Of a stretch of DNA of 64,000 bases, positions 29,700-43,965 are shown in pieces. How positions within the stretch are numbered: the first letter of the stretch is position 1; each line of letters opens with the position of its first letter. The position numbers and the translations under genes were made by a program. The stretch spans positions 124,001-188,000 of the forward strand of contig KQ965731.1 in the NCBI GenBank assembly GCA_001574975.1, in the 5' to 3' direction. Source of the stretch: Gonapodya prolifera JEL478. Its lineage: Eukaryota; Monoblepharomycota; Monoblepharidomycetes; Monoblepharidales; Gonapodyaceae. The notes under the pieces are model-generated. The model made no database searches. It was not told the origin of the DNA and saw only the letters and a list, made by a program, of their open reading frames with translations.

Positions 29700-30965
29700 A
29701 TGTCCACGATTTCCACTCTGAACGCTGTCCCCGTCAGTCCAACCACCTCCGGCTCAACTTCGGCAGCTTTGGTCACCGGCTCAACTCCCGTCTGCAGCTT
29801 CAGCTTCTGTTTCCCGATGCAAAGCGACGCCCAGCTCGCGGATTCGTCCCACCGCCTCCTCGCCACACTCCTCGTCCGCACGATTCCCTTATGCGACGCA
29901 TCGCTCAACAGGGCCCTCGCGCGCCTCGATGCCCTCACCAACCTCTACGACCAAATGGCCTCCATCATGGGCACCTTGCGATTCACAGAAACCGGTGCGC
30001 GTGACGGCGAAAAACGCGACGCAGGGTTGGAAATGCTCGTTTCGCAGTTCCCTAATCTCTTGACCAGACTGCTGGGAAAGGTGAGGCTTTCCGTCGAGAG
30101 AACGGCGTGGACGCTACTCTCAGACGACCTTGGGCTCCAAGGCGGTGTTGATGCGCCGGGGCTGGTGTCGAATCCGAGCGAGGCTCCACCAGAAGAGCGG
30201 GACGACGTCCAAGAACACCAGATCGAAGACGTCAATGGCGGAGAGGGAGCGGAGGAGTCGCCGTCACCGTCACGACGCACCGCCCGCCCACACTCATCCG
30301 CACGACCGAACTCGGATTCGAAATCTGCTGCTACTGCTTCTCGCAGCTCCGCATTAAGCGCCAGACCCACAGCATCCTCAACCTCGACCGACCTCCCCTC
30401 CCTTGCCCACCTGCACGCCCGCCTCCTCAATATCCACCGACGGGCTCTGCCCCTCCTTCGTCGCGCGCAAGACACGTCTTCACCGGCGATGTACAGCGGT
30501 CCTACGAGTATCGATCCCGTTGACTCGCTTACTTGGACAATCGCCATCGCGTCGCACGAAGCCACACGCATACACGAAAAAGTAGAATTAGCCCGGCTTG
30601 CTGTGCAGGGATGTTTTGGAGTGGGGCAGGGGCACGGTTCAAAGGACTCGTCGCAGGGCAACAAAAGCAACACCGGCAAGTTGAAAACACATCGGTTGGG
30701 GCACGTTTCGGAAGACTCGTCGCACGGCAACAACGGCAACGCCGACAAGTTGAAAACACATCGGTCACCATCACCGTCACCATCCTTATCGTCCGACTCA
30801 ACCTCAACCTCCTCCGCCTCATCAAACCCCTTTGACTACTCGGCGTTGCGCTTGCAATTCACTGAGCCCCGTGCACCAGACCTCGCCACGCTCCTTGAGT
30901 ACGCCAGGGATCGATACAGAGTCATGGAGAAGGGTGCCGCTCTCGAACGGGCCGGAGTTATCTGA
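29700..30965 (+). CDS. Hypothetical protein of unknown function (421 aa, intronless)
   Basis: A single frame from ATG 29700 to TGA. Two helical segments look structured: residues about 40-135 (QLADSSHRLLATLLVRTIPL through KVRLSVERTAWTLL) and 230-310. They are separated by a Ser/Pro/Asp/Glu-rich linker. Near residue 312 a unit of about 20 residues is duplicated (GKLKTHR, then DKLKTHR, each preceded by a DSS[QH]GN element), and a Ser-rich tract follows. The Leu/Arg-rich helices could be a helical-bundle interaction domain. I recognise no family. The upstream interval shared with the hydrolase gene is only 92 bp. Confidence 0.6.
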   Translation: MSTISTLNAVPVSPTTSGSTSAALVTGSTPVCSFSFCFPMQSDAQLADSSHRLLATLLVRTIPLCDASLNRALARLDALTNLYDQMASIMGTLRFTETGARDGEKRDAGLEMLVSQFPNLLTRLLGKVRLSVERTAWTLLSDDLGLQGGVDAPGLVSNPSEAPPEERDDVQEHQIEDVNGGEGAEESPSPSRRTARPHSSARPNSDSKSAATASRSSALSARPTASSTSTDLPSLAHLHARLLNIHRRALPLLRRAQDTSSPAMYSGPTSIDPVDSLTWTIAIASHEATRIHEKVELARLAVQGCFGVGQGHGSKDSSQGNKSNTGKLKTHRLGHVSEDSSHGNNGNADKLKTHRSPSPSPSLSSDSTSTSSASSNPFDYSALRLQFTEPRAPDLATLLEYARDRYRVMEKGAALERAGVI

Positions 30966-31256: not shown

Positions 31257-34200
31257 TCACATCGAGGCCATCTCTTCATCCCGGTGTGGGTCTTGCTCCA
31301 GCATCTCCCCCGTCTCGTTCTCCTTCCACACGGTATCGGCATCGGCATCGTCCGCGCTGGCGCTGGCTGTGCGCACCACCGATTTGCCCTTCACTCGACT
31401 CAATGCGGCGCGCGCCCGCACTTCACGGTCTCCCTGCGACCCAGGAAATATCACGTCGGCGGCGGCGGAAGACCCGAGATTCTCTTCCATGGATATGGAG
31501 GGAGTGATTGAGATTCCAGGCGTTGCGGACCCGGACAGAGAATCGAAGCGTGACCATCCACTGCTGTCGCCCCCGATATACGATGTGTACGGAGGAGGGT
31601 AACTGCTTTCTAAACCAGGCATCACGTCGTCGGATGTCGAAGTAAGAGTGAGGGTTTGAGTTTGAGTTTCAGTTGCATCCGCAAGAGTCTCTGGAAATTG
31701 CCCAAATGGTGGGTCCAACACCGCGCCTCGTCTGCGGTAGAAAAGAAGGTAGGCACTGCTCGTCTATCAAAGAGCGTGTTAGGAGTGTGTCGCAAGTTTT
31801 TTACAGAATCGTGCAGCGTGGGAGCCAAAAACACTTACCACAACATTGTCTTCACTTGTGAGGGACACCGACGAGTCATCGAACTTGTACCAGTTCCCGT
31901 CAACGGGACTTTGAGCGTACGCCGTATAATGGCCTCCCCCCATTCCACCAAAGTGGTTTGAAACGGCGTACAGGTCGAAAACAGGATCGTCGGATTCGGG
32001 GTTTGAATTAGGGTCTGGAGAGTCCGAGGTCTCTTGTTCTGTGTTCTGCGTCGTCGACTTGTTCCCCGCACCAAGCACATATTCACGGAGGGACAATCCC
32101 CTGGGACGGAACAAAAAAACGTCAGAATCACTGGGGCAACCGGCGCAAGAAATCCTGCGTACTTCACCGGGAACTCGACCAGTGTGTCGATCTTGTCCCC
32201 ACCTCGAGCCCACGAGTACGTTCTCATTCCCGAATTGGAAAATCTTTTCAGATGAATGACCACCTGATCCGGCACACGCCAGACGTCCATCTTCTTTCGG
32301 ACCTTTTGATGAGCTTTACATTTTGGGCAAAACCATGTGTCTTCGTCCCCAAGCGTTTCTTCCTTTGTGAACTCCCGAAGGCATTCATGTAAGGTGAGTG
32401 ACTTCCCGCGAGATGTAACCATGCTGCCACTCTTAGCGTCTCGGGGCAAAGGCTCGTACTAAAGAAATCCAATCCGAAATTAGTCGCATCTCACAAAGTA
32501 AAGGCGTTCAGAAGATCAGGAAGCTTACAGGGAATTGGCTATCACCAATAGCAGTATTTGTCAATCTTCCCCCATACTGTTTGAATGTGGCACGGTCACC
32601 AAAAAGTTCCCGTGCTACTCGCGGCGTCCAAGCGCTGACAAGAACGTCATTCTTGCGGAACTCCACACAGTAGTCAATCCACCCATCAATCGGTTCTTCG
32701 GTATCCAGTTCACCTGAAACCATTGCCTCAACCCCGTATGCGGTCTTCTCAGAGCCCTCCTTGTACATAAGCCAGCTTTGAGTAGGTCGGTACGATCCGT
32801 GATTCTCAAACCAATCAGCACTTTCTCTCCATAATCTGTATTCACTATTAAGCCTGGAACCACCGTACATGGTGTGGACCGTCTTCTTCACAGGGTCCAT
32901 CGTTGTCCCGTTAAAAATAGGTGAAGGATCCTTTTCGATGGTCTCGCGAATGAGGTACAATTCGAAGAGATTAGGACGAACAACAGAGTCGTCCAAGGTC
33001 GTGTATGGGTCCTCGAAACACGGGGGATACAGTACAGCTTCCTTCAAATGGAGGCATTAGTTCGTCGAAAGGAGGTGTCGATTTCAGAAACCAGCCGACC
33101 CACATCCACTGTCTCGTTACCATTGATATCCTCCTTCCTCGTTCCAGGATCCAAGGGATCCGCTATTCCTCTGCTGTAATACCCATTCGTAGTGCTATCC
33201 AATCGTGCGAATGTGTCTCCCGCCGAATATGGTTGGGATACTTCATCATACGTGGGTGGACCATATTGATTGTTAAACCGAACCCTCGGCGCAATAGGCT
33301 CTGGTGCCAACGGGTCTGGGGCAAGGCGTTGGCTGTCCACATCCATCTCGTCCCTCTCGACTGGGCTATCCGATGGGGTAACTCCGACTTTGCGATCCGA
33401 GGATTTGATGTCTTCGGCATCCCATTGCTCCCCTTTGGCCAGCGCGATTTGTTTTTGAGTGAAGCGCTGAACTTGCCTCACAAACTCTCGGTACAGCTTC
33501 CAACCAACAAGTTCCCTTCCGATCTGACTGATCTGCTCATCTGTGGAATTTCTGAACCTGGGCACTTTCACCCACATGTTTGCAGGTAGTGACATAACAA
33601 TTGGTGTCCCAAACAATTCTATGTTGGAACGAGAGGGTGGTTTGAAGGAATCAGTCTTCTGTTTGGCCATGAACATCCCTGCTATGTTGACGGTGGCCCT
33701 CTGAGGCGGTGATTTCAAGAGTTCCAATCGAAGCATTAGTGATACTTCAGACAAATCTGTCAATGTCCTGTATAGAGGCAGTGGCGCTGGAGAGGTCCCA
33801 GACAGTCCACCGTACGGTGACGGTGTGCGTTTAACCGAGAGCCCAGGAGGTTGAATGGATCCTGCAACGGATCGATCTGTCCCATCACCCGTTTCTTCAG
33901 CGCCATCCTCTGGCTTCTTTATGTTTCGCTTGAGGATCTCCGATTCCAGCGCCTCTAGATGTTCCCTTTCATCGGGACTTGGGGCGGTCAACCCTCCTAG
34001 ACGGATTAGCACGTGGTGTTTTGGTTCGCACTCGTACACCCAAATGGTGTCCGAGTCCGAGATCTCGGTGATACCATCAAACTCGTCAAGTAATTTCCAG
34101 ATTTTATGCGAATACACCTCCCAGACTATTGCCTCCGGTGTTGACTCTCCTGGCTCCTTCCACCCAGTCGACAGACTCAACTTGTCTGCAAGTCCCTTGA

Positions 34201-37200
34201 TCCGTGAATCCTTTGGGAGAGTGATGGCAATTTCTTTCGCCCTTGCCTGTTCCAAACCTCGTGAGATTCTCCCGACCACAATGACTCTCTTGGTCTCCTC
34301 CTTGGTCTCAACTACTGGCACTGCAATATACATAAACGGATCAAAGGTTACGCTGACTCCATCGCAGACCGTACACGTCACTTTGCTCTTGAATTGGCCT
34401 TGGAATAGATCGACAACCACCGAATCATTGCGTGCCTTGTACACATCCCAACTAATTGCCGCTGCCTCCTCATCGCTCCTTTCGGAAATATCGTCAGGAA
34501 GGGAAACATACGGTTTCTTCTTAACCCGGTTAAGATCTTCGTGTAAGCCATCCAACAGCGAGGCCAACAGCTCCTGCGAATCGTGTTGGTGATAACCTTG
34601 GAAAGTTGAGTTGAAGCGTGCCATAACTGCCTTGAATTCAGAGGGGCGCACTGCACGGGAGTAGGATGACCAGTACGAAGATGAGGACCACCCTCCACCG
34701 CCAAAGTAGCTGGACGTGGTCCTCGACGTCGATTGCGCTTTCTTGGCCTCTTTCGCTTCTGCCCACAACTCCCTCACAAGCTTTGCGTACGCCTCTGCGA
34801 TCTCACCACGCATTCCCAGTGGGTTATCGCGATTAAGGTCAGCCCGCCAATTGGGTCCCAAAAAGAAGGCTGTTAATGCCCACGTAGCGGACATACACTG
34901 GACGGACGAGTTCATAAAGCACTGCAGCAGATTGCATGAGTGGTTGATACTTTGCGGCAAGCAGACACTCGAAGCCTCACAGTGTTCCCCAAGTTTACTA
35001 GTCCTGTCGCACCACGCGGCAAATCTTCATCGTCTTTATCCGCCGCTGTCCTCTGACTTGCCCTACCAAGCATTTCATCCTCTTCTCTCTCAGCGGACTT
35101 GAAAAAGTTACCCGCTACTGATACTGGGTCATCCTCGTCGCGTGACGATTCCGGTGGTCCAAGTATGATTGCACCTGAGGCTGTCCGTGGCGTGGAAGGG
35201 CCAATGGGCACAGGTGGAGCTGGCGGAGCAGCAGAAGGAGACATGCTTCTGGAAGATAGTGAGCGATGACGCTTCGCCGCAAATGCAAGTTGTGCATCCA
35301 ACTCACCCCTCACCGTCCCATTCGCTCACAACTTCTCTTTGGTCCATCTCTTCGTCACCTTCGTTACGATCTCCTTCTCCCAACCCACGAATTTCAATGC
35401 CACTGCCTTCTCCGCCTATCTCGAGCCCCAGGGCGTCTCCGATAAAACTCCCATCCCTCCGGCTCACCTCCACGCCAATCCAGCCTCCATCTCCCAATCC
35501 AGATCCCACACCAAGCACTTCGCACGCCGTCTTTTTGGCATCCTTCTTGACTACAGGTGCGCTCGGTCTGGGACTATCTCCTTCATCTCCAAGTCCCACT
35601 TTCCACAGCCTCGCCTGACGACCTTCTTCAGAACAGCCAAGACGTACTTCAAGAGCACGGAGAATTGAAGTCACAGTGGTACTTTGGGTGACTATGACGG
35701 CGAGTAAGGGGAATTCAGTGATGGGGAGATCCGCTGTTGGTAAAAGCACAATGACAGGAAGAAGTGCTGGGTAAAGATCCAGGACGTATGGTGCGGCTGG
35801 AGAAAATATGCGAGGGATGACATGGCGAGGTGTCAGAGGTTGATGCCTAAAGCGATTCCCAAATGAATCAGGAGATTTGAGACGGTTTGGAGACCGTTTC
35901 TGTTCCCCCCCCCTACGCTTTGACCTACCACGCCAGCAACTTCTGCCAACCTTCTTTTCGAACCATCACATAGTCAATCAAATGATGAAGTGGCTCTTTG
36001 AGCCTTCCTGCCACTCCAGCACCCATAGAGTCATACCCGTTTTTGCGAGGAGGCAAGAGCGAAGAGTTATCAATAGGTCCTGGCGTTGGGGCCTCTCCCT
36101 CTGCCTCACACCAAGTGTTGAAGCGACCATACCACCGGTCGGACAGTAAGTAGACGGGATCACCGGTGTGGGGAGCTTTCGGGGAACCCGCGATGATGTA
36201 ATTCTTCAGAATTAGTTGTTGAACGCGAGGGGGGCGGTTCGAAGGGAGGGTTGACGGAATGGTAGGGTTGGTCATTGGCGGAGTGCGACGGTTGCTTGGA
36301 GGAGGTGGGGCCGGGGGAATGTTGGAAGGAAACTGGATGATGAAGAAAAGATGAGTAGGTTCTTCCCCGCCATCGAGTTTCAACCTCTCATCCTTGCCCT
36401 CTGCCACGTCGCCACATTCCTTGGTAGAAGTATCCTTCCTTGACCCGGAATTCCGGTTTCGTCGACCCACCTTGGCCCCGGAGTCCCATTCGTACTGAGC
36501 GTCATCGGCAAGAACTGTGACGATGGGCGCCGCGATTATAGGCTCCGGTCCCGAAAATGATGCAGAGTCCTCATTCTCTTGAATCGAATACGGCGCCCCA
36601 ACGGTGTCTCCGCCTCTTTTCCACGACGGATCACGGACCATGTCAACACTGTATGCTTCATCGAACTCATCCTCCCTTTCCGACATGGTGTAAACGCCAC
36701 TTGGACGATTTTGAGGGCGTTCCATAGGATCAAATCCAGAGATCGTGGCATCTATATCCTCGAGTGGTGGCATATCCGAATAGTCATACCCAGGCTCATG
36801 GGGGGGAGTTGCTTCCGGATTTGGGGGGTGGGTAGAACCATGTGGAGGCCACCTGCCACCTGGGGGTGCTGTATAGTAGTCATTGAGCCCTCCGGAACGC
36901 GAAGTTGGGGGAGAGTGGGAGAACAATGGAGTTGAGGTGACTGGGGAATTGGTGAACGGGTCTGAGGAGACACCGAAGTCGTGGTGAGAAGACGCGTCAG
37001 TTGCAGCGTCCGAAGCTGCATCAGACTGCCAAGCGAAATCGTCTTGCGGTAGATATGGGGCAGGCGAAGCGGCAGGTGGTAGGGGGTTGTGCGAACCGGA
37101 TACCAACTGCGACGGGGACAGGGCAGGGGTGATGCGCGCGGGTGGCGGTGTCACTGTCCGTGAGTTTCGAGTCGGAGAGAGTGGTGGAGAGATCGACATG

Positions 37201-40921: not shown

Positions 40922-43900
40922 ATGCCTTCGGTCGTTGTTGTCGGCTGCGGTGTCATCGGACTCTCCACCGCATTAGTAGCGAAGGGAAGGGGATACGATG
41001 TCAGTTTTCATGCTCGTGCTCGTCGATCCTGCACATCGAGTCGGTTTTCACTCAATTACAACCTCGATTCCTTGTGATGGCTTCAGGTTACCATCATTTC
41101 CCTTGCGACTCCAGACGACACGTCCAGTGACCCCAACTACACATCTGACAATGCCACGACGCACTGGCGCTCCTCGGCGGACTTTGCCCCGGTCGCAGTC
41201 CGCGAAAGGCAGCGCCAATGGGACAAGCAGACTTTCCAAACACTCTGGCTTCTCGCGGCGGACCCTGTGAAACTACCGAATGGAAATCTGGGGCCCAGAG
41301 ATCCGAAAAGCGCGAAAGGTATCTCTAAAGTTACAGAACGACATGTGTTTCCGAGCAAACCACACGGCTGGACGGAACCATTCTACAAACGATTCATTCC
41401 CAATGTGAGATTGAGAGTCAAGGACCCGAGTGCGATATGCACCAAGTCGCTCAAGACAATCACTTTAAGTTTCGCTACTTGAAGCCCGCTGATCTTCCTA
41501 AAGGAATGAAATTCGGTTTCGAGTATACAACCGGTAAGGCTAATGTTTCCGGATCAGTCGGCGTTGTCACGGTTTCTCGCAACTCGGCATAGTTTCTATT
41601 CACCCTGATCAGTACCTCGGATACTTACTCAGATCTTTCCGTGCACTTGGGGGAAAGGTTGTTTCTGGAGTAAAAGTTGCAAGCTTGTCCGAAATAGTCG
41701 AAAGAGGTTTCGACGTCGTCGTAAACTGTACCGGGATCGGAGCTGCTTCATTGACTTCGACATCATCTTCAAACACAACCCTTGATTCCAACGTGTACGC
41801 TGTGCGTGGTCACAATGTGCTGATTAAAGCTCCGCACTGTACACAATCGACAATGGCAGACCCGGTAAAGTTCTCCAAAATTTGCTTCCCACCTTCCGCA
41901 AACTAAAATTTGCTCTTGCGATCCCGAAGACCTATATTATTCCTCTATTTGATGGAGAAGGCACTGTCTGCGTCGTTGGCACATACCAACCAAAGGAGGG
42001 GGAAAGAGGAGAGGGAGAGATGGTTGCTTCCATGTTATGGAAAGCCTCGCAGCTCGATCCAGCCATTGTCGTGTCCTCTGAAGCAAACCTCCTTGGTCAA
42101 AACAAAACAATGGGATGGTTGAACGACGACGATGATGATGGAGAGGACGAAGATGTGGAGCATGGCGACTTGTTTGATGAAAGAGCCGAAAGCGAGGAAG
42201 AGAATCGTGAGTGGCTCGTGATGTTGATCCAGTGTTCAAGAATCTCACAGATCCCCATCTCAGTCGAATATTCTGAACCGACCTCATCCCTCGATCATCC
42301 TCTGGGAACCTCCGAACATTTGCCGGTGACAAGTGCTGCTCCTCCGCGCTGGCAGCAGGCCTCACCCAATCATATCAGCAGTTCAACTGTCGATGAATCA
42401 CATTTTGAAGAAGAGCTGGAACCGCAATCTCTCCCCGAGACTGAGGACTCTTCGGACCTCACTGACGCTGTGGAAGAAGAAGTTGAGCATGCTACCAACC
42501 CTATGCCTGGAGACGGGGAACAAGAGATGTCTGCAGGGAGCAGTGTAGAGCACGCTCTCCAAGACGAAGAATCACTGGATCCTGATCATGCGCCTGATGA
42601 ATTCTCTGAAAAAAAGACAAAATCTATGGATCATGAGTCTGAGGAGCGAGCATCTCACGGTAATGACGACTTTGCGAAGGATGACCATGAAGAGGAGGGT
42701 GTTGAGTGTGAGCATTCGCGATCTCCCCACTTTTGTTTTTTATTATTTTTTTTTTGAATGTGACAGTTACAACAGTGAGCTCAAAGTCGACGGACTTCGA
42801 CAGTGTCGTCTCCCACGATGACATCTATCCAAATGAGAATGATGCACCCTCTCCCACATCCACGCTGGACCACCCTCTCGAAACCGCCTCCCAGCTTCCA
42901 GTTGAGCCGTCGAGCACCTCAAATACCGGCGCAGTCCCAGTTCCTTCGGCGTCTCTTGACGTTCCCACCTCGGCTTTCGCGGAGCAGCACGTTGGAGCTG
43001 TTGAGGAGATCATTTTTGACGAGGATAACGCGGTTACGGAGCCCAACAGTCTTGAGAGCTCGATTTCTGAAGAGGTAGATACTGGGGCTCAAGGCGCCGG
43101 TTTCGCCCAAGTGGAAGGAGTTGTTGCAACCACCGCAGAGGAAGAAACTACCGCTGAAGAAACGTTGGATGATGAGAACTTGTTCCCTGTTGAGGCCAGA
43201 AAGGGGCAACCGATTGCATCGACCATTCCGTATGTCGCAGAGGCAGAAGCTACGTCAGGCATCCTCGAAGCCGAAAATGCTGTTGTAAATGAATACTTGG
43301 AGGGTGGATTCGGTGGTTCAGGAAGTAGAGGAGATTTTGTGAACGCTGTTGAGCGGGAGGTAGAGGAACGTGTTGAAGGTAAGGAGCTTCATATTCTCGG
43401 TGTACTTTTTTATTGAACCTCTTGCTGGGATTACAGTGGAACCCAGTTATCCCAAGACTCTCCGGGAAGAAATTGAAGCCCAAGGTTTCTCTTTGCCTCC
43501 CGGTATTGAAGTCCTCAAAGTGAACGGTGGGTGTCCTACTAATTCAAATGACTCGGCTTCCTCTTACTTTCCACGTGTACCAACGTAAAAAGTCGGTCTC
43601 CGACCCCAAAGGCCGGATGACACTAGACTGAATTCCGAGGTTGTTGTGTCGAAACAGGGTAAGTGATATGATCATTACTTATTACTCGCACGTTAATCGT
43701 ATACCCTTCGCACCAGGCAAGAAGGTTCTCGTCGTCCACAACTACGGCCACGGTGGTGAGTGTCAGACGGTCTCTGGGAAGGACAACTCCTTCTTTTCAA
43801 TTACTAAAATTCGACCGTCTTTTATCAGGTTGGGGCTTCCAGAGTTCCTGGGGATCCTCTAATGCTGCAGTTGCAGAAATTGAGAAATATTTCCCTAAGG

Positions 43901-43965
43901 AGCCGTCAACTATCTGGGGAAAACTGGTTGCAATGGTATTCGGTCGCGCAAAAGCAAAGCTGTGA
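40922..43965 (+). CDS. D-amino-acid-oxidase-like FAD enzyme split by a large acidic insert (817 aa)
   Basis: Exons 40922-40999, 41087-41404, 41470-41533, 41593-41864, 41930-42707, 42767-43378, 43437-43526, 43593-43658, 43717-43755 and 43829-43965 give 817 residues in one frame. DAAO blocks appear in order: dinucleotide-binding VVVVGCGVIGLSTALVAKG, WTEPFYKRFIPN-FRYLKPADLPKG, PDQYLGYLLRSFRALGG, VVVNCTGIGAASL, YAVRGHNVLI, PLFDGEGTVCVVGTYQ, then much later VGLRPQRPDDTRLN and VVHNYGHGG-WGFQSSWG. Family enzymes oxidatively deaminate D-amino acids. DAAOs are usually about 340-370 residues. Here about 440 residues of Glu/Asp/Ser-rich sequence separate GTYQPKEG from VGLRP. The C-terminal AKL is a PTS1-type peroxisomal signal. 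Some DAAO residues are substituted, so the exact substrate (D-amino acid or D-aspartate) is open. Confidence 0.85.

Follow-up and report, generated by a model that had tools for sequence, protein, structure and literature searches.

D-amino-acid oxidase (DAAO) represents a well-studied flavoenzyme fold, which is in use for biocatalysis and as a tool in cell biology, and eukaryotic DAAOs typically carry a C-terminal peroxisomal signal. Among solved structures the closest relative by sequence of the protein described here is the yeast enzyme 1c0i (phmmer against the PDB, E 3.2e-29), which we take to be the DAAO of Rhodotorula gracilis. The likeness covers the whole core, including the catalytic Tyr/Tyr/Arg set, and in one loop the yeast enzyme has 6 residues and the present protein about 419. 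The DAAO of Rasamsonia emersonii (7ct4) is similarly alike in its core and in the VVHNYGHGG block, and human D-aspartate oxidase (6rkf) in its core and in the GLRPxRP...YGHG block, but neither has the insert. The human enzyme differs further at the one position GGT[Y/R], where it has the Arg that is presumably the mark of a D-aspartate oxidase and the present protein has Tyr263. Finally, there are circularly permuted bacterial DAAOs of the same fold family, whose break falls in the very loop that holds the insert; in these the blocks are reordered and several N-termini are signal-like, whereas the order is normal here.

With respect to location, Dao1 of Ustilago maydis is also a fungal peroxisomal DAAO, and it gathers in peroxisomal cores, which are sub-compartments of the organelle (PMC11842775). 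The portion of that paper available here mentions no insert in Dao1, and the sufficient core motif that it describes, TIIV of Mac3, is a short peptide rather than an acidic chain. Placement of a DAAO within peroxisomes therefore does occur in fungi, according to this portion of the paper, and nothing ties it to the insert. The present protein has a long acidic insert in the DAAO loop at which permuted relatives begin and end. No insert-bearing DAAO was found among the matches listed when open-licence PubMed Central was searched by titles and the starts of abstracts, so that the initial annotation, which knew of no such DAAO, is not contradicted within that scope. What might such an oxidase gain from an insert that exceeds its own core in length, and what is it about this loop that allows it?

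The gene and its catalytic core

The gene lies on the forward strand at 40,922-43,965 of the window, that is, of the whole 64,000-nucleotide stretch of DNA that was analysed. The best model has 11 exons, separated by introns of 57-87 nt, and encodes 798 residues ending in AKL-stop at 43,954-43,965. The initial annotation had described a chain that stays in phase and ends in AKL, which holds, and had given it ten exons and 817 residues, which the best model revises: the gap of 19 residues arises because intron 5 (42,207-42,263; donor GTGAGT, acceptor CTCAG) was retained in that version. This intron, at 57 nt, is a multiple of three and free of stops, such that the frame is unbroken whether it is spliced or retained, with retention giving the 817-residue product. 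Intron 2 was set at 41,405-41,469 because the product, PNFRYLKPADLP, then matches the PNYRPLPSSECP of yeast DAAO; the alternatives to this intron also preserve the frame, and for the gene as a whole there are ten in-frame combinations of introns. Intron 6 has two candidate acceptors, at 42,766 and 42,775. Introns 3 and 5-10 are all in phase 1, and exons 6-10 are symmetric (1-1).

The identity of the protein is given by two stretches of homology that flank the insert. The N-terminal core (residues 1-291; 40,922-42,070) comes from exons 1-4 together with the greater part of exon 5, and includes Tyr246 and Tyr263, while the C-terminal core (residues 708-798; 43,493-43,965) includes Arg722, the HNYGHGG block at residue 748 and the AKL end. 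The Pfam DAO family, the profile against which a check had been proposed, matches residues 4-283 with E 5.1e-27 and 95.8 bits against a cut-off of 27.9. The phmmer alignment to 1c0i comes in two pieces, with residues 3-290 covering chain residues 8-268 and residues 710-773 covering 275-356; on its own the C-terminal piece scores 12.9 bits against 1c0i, 36.3 against 7ct4 and 26.8 against 6rkf. The blocks named in the initial annotation are all present, with GTYQPKEG at 41,978, LDPAIV at 42,053, VGLRPQRP from 43,526, its first codon being split by an intron, and VVHNYGHGG from 43,731. The FAD motif GxGxxG is found as GCGVIG at residue 8, ahead of the GLRP...HNYGHGG block, so the order is the normal one and the protein is not circularly permuted. 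Tyr246, Tyr263 and Arg722 align with Tyr223, Tyr238 and Arg285, the catalytic residues in the active site of the yeast enzyme, and the AKL at the C-terminus resembles a PTS1-type peroxisomal signal. At 798 residues the chain is far from the 338-388 of 17 solved relatives, although length is a family-typical trait rather than the defining one of a DAAO. The enzyme core thus looks intact, and with the insert placed where the chain ends of some bacterial relatives lie, the predicted enzyme could well remain folded and active.

The acidic insert

The insert comprises residues 292-707 (42,071-43,492), from the end of exon 5, through exons 6 (42,264-42,707) and 7 (42,767-43,378), both of which consist entirely of insert, to the start of exon 8 (43,437-43,526), where its final residues are joined to the conserved PPGIEVLKVN. 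It stands between the helix ending in LDPAI and the strand IEVLKVNVGLRP, equivalent to a position between residues 268 and 275 of the 1c0i chain. The long acidic insertion that had been proposed is thereby borne out, with DAAO homology on both of its sides, whereas the suggested length of about 440 residues comes down to some 416-419 by phmmer against 1c0i. Its nearness in sequence to the active-site segment likewise stands, as only a short stretch separates its end from the strand whose Arg aligns with Arg285 of the yeast enzyme. The sequence argues against a separate gene here, the refuting condition named in the initial annotation, because the reading frame runs on into DAAO sequence in both directions.

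The composition of the insert is extreme. Asp and Glu make up 26.0% and Lys and Arg 3.8%, for a net charge of -92, and Cys is absent. It exceeds in acidity each of nine other ORFs measured in the window, its most acidic 100-residue stretch reaching -33 against a lowest value of -17 in those ORFs. A run of 416 stop-free codons has a probability of about 1.7e-9 from base composition and arose in 0 of 20,000 shuffles, a figure flattered by the choice of splice sites that preserve the frame; most of the signal comes from two stretches, of 309 and 234 codons, that are open without any splicing. Codon usage was uninformative as a coding test for core and insert alike. Searches with the insert gave no family in Pfam and, in the PDB, a sole match to 8pjt at E 0.019 that was taken as chance. 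Within the 64-kb window a tblastn search with the insert returned the gene itself, two copies of a short element containing LDHPL and a match at 35,369-35,533 (E 0.87), also taken as chance. Since Pfam holds no match and both ends of the insert lie inside exons that also bear DAAO sequence, the insert has probably grown within the gene rather than been acquired as a foreign domain.

On a charge-hydropathy plot the insert as a whole falls on the disordered side (distance -0.234), whereas the core plots with folded chains (+0.159). By part, the values are -0.523 for the end of exon 5, -0.398 for exon 6, -0.052 for exon 7 and +0.072 for exon 8, so that exon 7 barely counts as disordered and exon 8 counts as folded. 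When exon 7 was modelled alone by single-sequence AlphaFold the mean pLDDT was 51.8 and the pTM 0.15, and the only structure in the model was a pair of short helices near the end. The disorder claimed in the initial annotation is therefore probable, the composition and the exon 7 model hinting at it rather than establishing it.

The only internal similarity of the insert that rises above chance is a 17-residue element, PTS[ST]LDHPL...LPV, present as PTSSLDHPLGTSEHLPV at 42,278-42,328 and as PTSTLDHPLETASQLPV at 42,853-42,903, which are 70.6% identical. The two S-[ST]-LDHPL copies noted earlier are accounted for by this element (SSLDHPL at 42,284 and STLDHPL at 42,859), and the best ungapped 15-residue pair between them was reached in 0 of 1,000 shuffles. 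With the element masked, 333 of 1,000 shuffles attain the similarity score that remains between the halves of the insert. Both copies can thus be taken as real, although what is repeated is a short element and not an exon. A whole-exon duplication giving rise to exons 6 and 7 was rejected, the shared part being the 17-residue element alone, and so was a set of four quasi-repeats of about 90 residues, for which one of six pairs beats shuffles, that pair being the one that holds the element. No tandem array was found within the insert. At the nucleotide level an 18-nt direct repeat (43,134-43,151 and 43,236-43,253; 89% identical, 102 nt apart) lies within exon 7, and a 14-nt direct repeat (42,780-42,793 and 43,514-43,527; 86% identical), which may be chance, joins the region near the start of exon 7 to the end of exon 8.

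The loop in prokaryotic relatives

A profile (A1) built from the core of this gene and three solved relatives was run on one genome per GTDB species, and 30 of 595 candidate stretches among the matches listed encode relatives. In the unpermuted prokaryotic DAAOs the GG strand and the G of GLRP lie 42 residues apart in all 22 measured (among the matches listed), 19 having been counted by script and three (L010, L017 and L018) by eye; these are 22 of the 24 unpermuted loci, with L005 and L030 left out. By the same count the distance is 48 in the yeast enzyme, slightly longer than in the bacterial ones, and 460 in the present protein. The constancy of the prokaryotic count means that this loop does not normally vary in length, and such rigidity could be read as an intolerance of insertion.

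The permuted relatives bear on the same loop. Six of the 30 GTDB loci (L024-L029; among the matches listed) are permuted, together with L031, the single relative from IMG/VR; a search of IMG/VR with the core of the gene alone returned no relative. In all seven the GLRP/CLRP...HNYG[HY]GG...S[WFL]G block comes first and the GxGxxG block second. A profile (A2) of these seven sequences matches the solved D-aspartate oxidase 6rkf in swapped order with E 1.5e-44, profile positions 81-347 aligning to chain residues 6-266 and positions 22-77 to residues 273-331. The permutation break therefore falls between residues 266 and 273 of 6rkf, which is the loop of the insert. The position of the chain end is clear in five of the seven (L024-L028), where it lies just past the helix that precedes this loop, and is ambiguous in L029, which extends beyond the loop, and in L031, whose frame stops earlier. 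An AlphaFold2 model of L026 (7 rows) gave a pLDDT of 79.7 and a pTM of 0.82, and Foldseek with this model returned human D-aspartate oxidase and human DAAO as the top two PDB entries at E 1.5e-16, with TM values of 0.59-0.60 by query over 274-284 columns of the 372-residue model. Such partial coverage is what a permutation would give, because Foldseek aligns in chain order.

Permuted forms recur in wider groups of genomes. At E 1e-40 or better, A2 has matches in at least 11 of 240 genomes in the class of the genome that holds L026, and in 9 of 151 in the phylum of the genome that holds L027, the starting genome being counted in each case; of the matches in the latter phylum two lie close to the cut-off, one of them with an internal stop. 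Both motifs lie in one frame in 12 of 20 fetched loci, all 12 of which are permuted; the remaining eight did not show both motifs. Two of the 12 (L032 and L043) are L026 and L027 again, and the others are L033-L036, L039-L041, L045, L047 and L048. Named records with permuted DAAOs come from Komagataeibacter, Maricaulaceae, Rhizobiales, Chlamydiae and Phycisphaerales. The genome with L029 has a second A2 match, over profile positions 30-353 (E 5.4e-85). By eye, several permuted DAAOs have twin-arginine- or lipoprotein-like N-termini, which suggests that they may be exported. A search of open-licence PubMed Central by titles and the starts of abstracts found no natural permuted DAAO among the matches listed.

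Judging by the predicted proteins of these relatives, some members of the DAAO fold family manage without an unbroken chain at the loop of the insert. A long unfolded chain at this point is, because the permutants are broken in the same loop, structurally plausible for the fold. The permutants do not reveal what the insert does, and the idea in the initial annotation that it might tune activity, import or partner binding is speculative.

Explanations for the insert

The explanation that is tentatively preferred, at somewhat short of an even chance, is that the gene encodes a peroxisomal DAAO that performs the usual chemistry, and that the loop separating the LDPAI helix from the strand with the carboxylate-binding Arg has expanded, from some 6 residues to some 420, to form an acidic bristle or tether with docking motifs. 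The core would fold and bind FAD as normal, and the insert would hang out as an acidic unfolded chain. As a bristle it might keep a hydrogen peroxide-producing oxidase soluble; as a tether it might anchor the oxidase to a partner through the two PTS[ST]LDHPLxTxxxLPV motifs, either in the cytosol before import or within the peroxisome. Short known motifs (CK2, SP/TP, PxxP, LIR and others) were looked for in the insert and none was enriched over shuffles, so nothing known backs the docking role.

Nearly as likely, and a serious rival, is neutral growth, whereby a permissive surface loop has gathered acidic low-complexity sequence by slippage and small duplications and the insert is functionless but tolerated. 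Fungal low-complexity regions are reported, in the portion of PMC11878562 drawn upon here, to be over-represented in A, D, E, P, N, Q, S and T and depleted in Arg and Lys, and the composition of the insert fits this description. The absence both of a Pfam match and of enrichment in known short motifs is what such growth would leave, the 18-nt repeat at 43,134 and 43,236 hints at local duplication, and it is at this loop that the chains of the natural permutants are broken. The frame, however, has remained open across 416 codons, and the 17-residue element is kept twice at 71% identity while the rest has no internal similarity, which looks like selection, although a recent small duplication could equally yield two LDHPL copies. 

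A broader reading, which appears improbable, would make the loop a general seam at which DAAOs are broken and inserted into, with bacteria reordering the enzyme, perhaps for export, and the fungal insert controlling where or when hydrogen peroxide is made; for instance, a 416-residue chain with two motifs might hold the oxidase in or out of peroxisomal cores.

If the insert and the break of the permutants both hold, then the loop is a structural seam of DAAO, and fusion proteins could usefully be built at a seam with room for long chains. With this gene one could also ask directly if a disordered acidic loop positions or restrains an enzyme that produces hydrogen peroxide.

Splicing might instead control the insert. 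The symmetry of exons 6, 7 and 8 would by phase alone let them be skipped in frame, to give short and long isoforms, and intron 5 can be retained in frame. Against this, introns 9 and 10 are also in phase 1, so that the symmetry may be chance, and exon 5 keeps 46 insert residues in any exon-skipped isoform. A route to an enzyme of canonical length is not favoured either: the five GT sites near the start of the insert include no good donor, the best scoring 0.6 against 6.4-11.0 for the donors used, a gap that is partly by construction because the matrix was built from the same ten donors. Acceptors near the end of the insert are adequate, 43,520 scoring 7.2 on the matrix from the gene's own introns. 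Splice control of this kind is accordingly rather unlikely. More doubtful still is an artefact of the gene model, in which the transcript ends before the insert, or 42,071-43,492 belongs to another gene, and there is no insert-bearing oxidase. Retention of intron 6 or intron 7 would indeed stop translation early, at the stops that close the two unspliced open stretches, but the frame runs continuously between the DAAO halves across well-formed introns, and the conserved C-terminal half, with Arg722, HNYGHGG and AKL, is hard to explain in unused exons. The insert might also be an inhibitory or regulatory arm, keeping the active site blocked until cleavage or binding of the arm. This would suit its place directly before the Arg722 strand in sequence, but neither a protease site nor any other known motif was identified in the insert, and this is very unlikely.

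Elsewhere in the window, ORFs score above the Pfam cut-offs for CCT/TCP-1, UCH, DUSP and Mis12, and below the cut-off for Med7, a set that would suit a fungus, and the introns mark the DNA as eukaryotic. The UCH-type ubiquitin protease ORF (33,047-35,026, reverse strand) has some 300 extra residues in its catalytic domain, residues 35-495 spanning only positions 9-162 of the profile; such inserts are known in the UCH family. A tandem repeat at 30,629-30,765 has a period of 69, with 2.0 copies and 86% matches.
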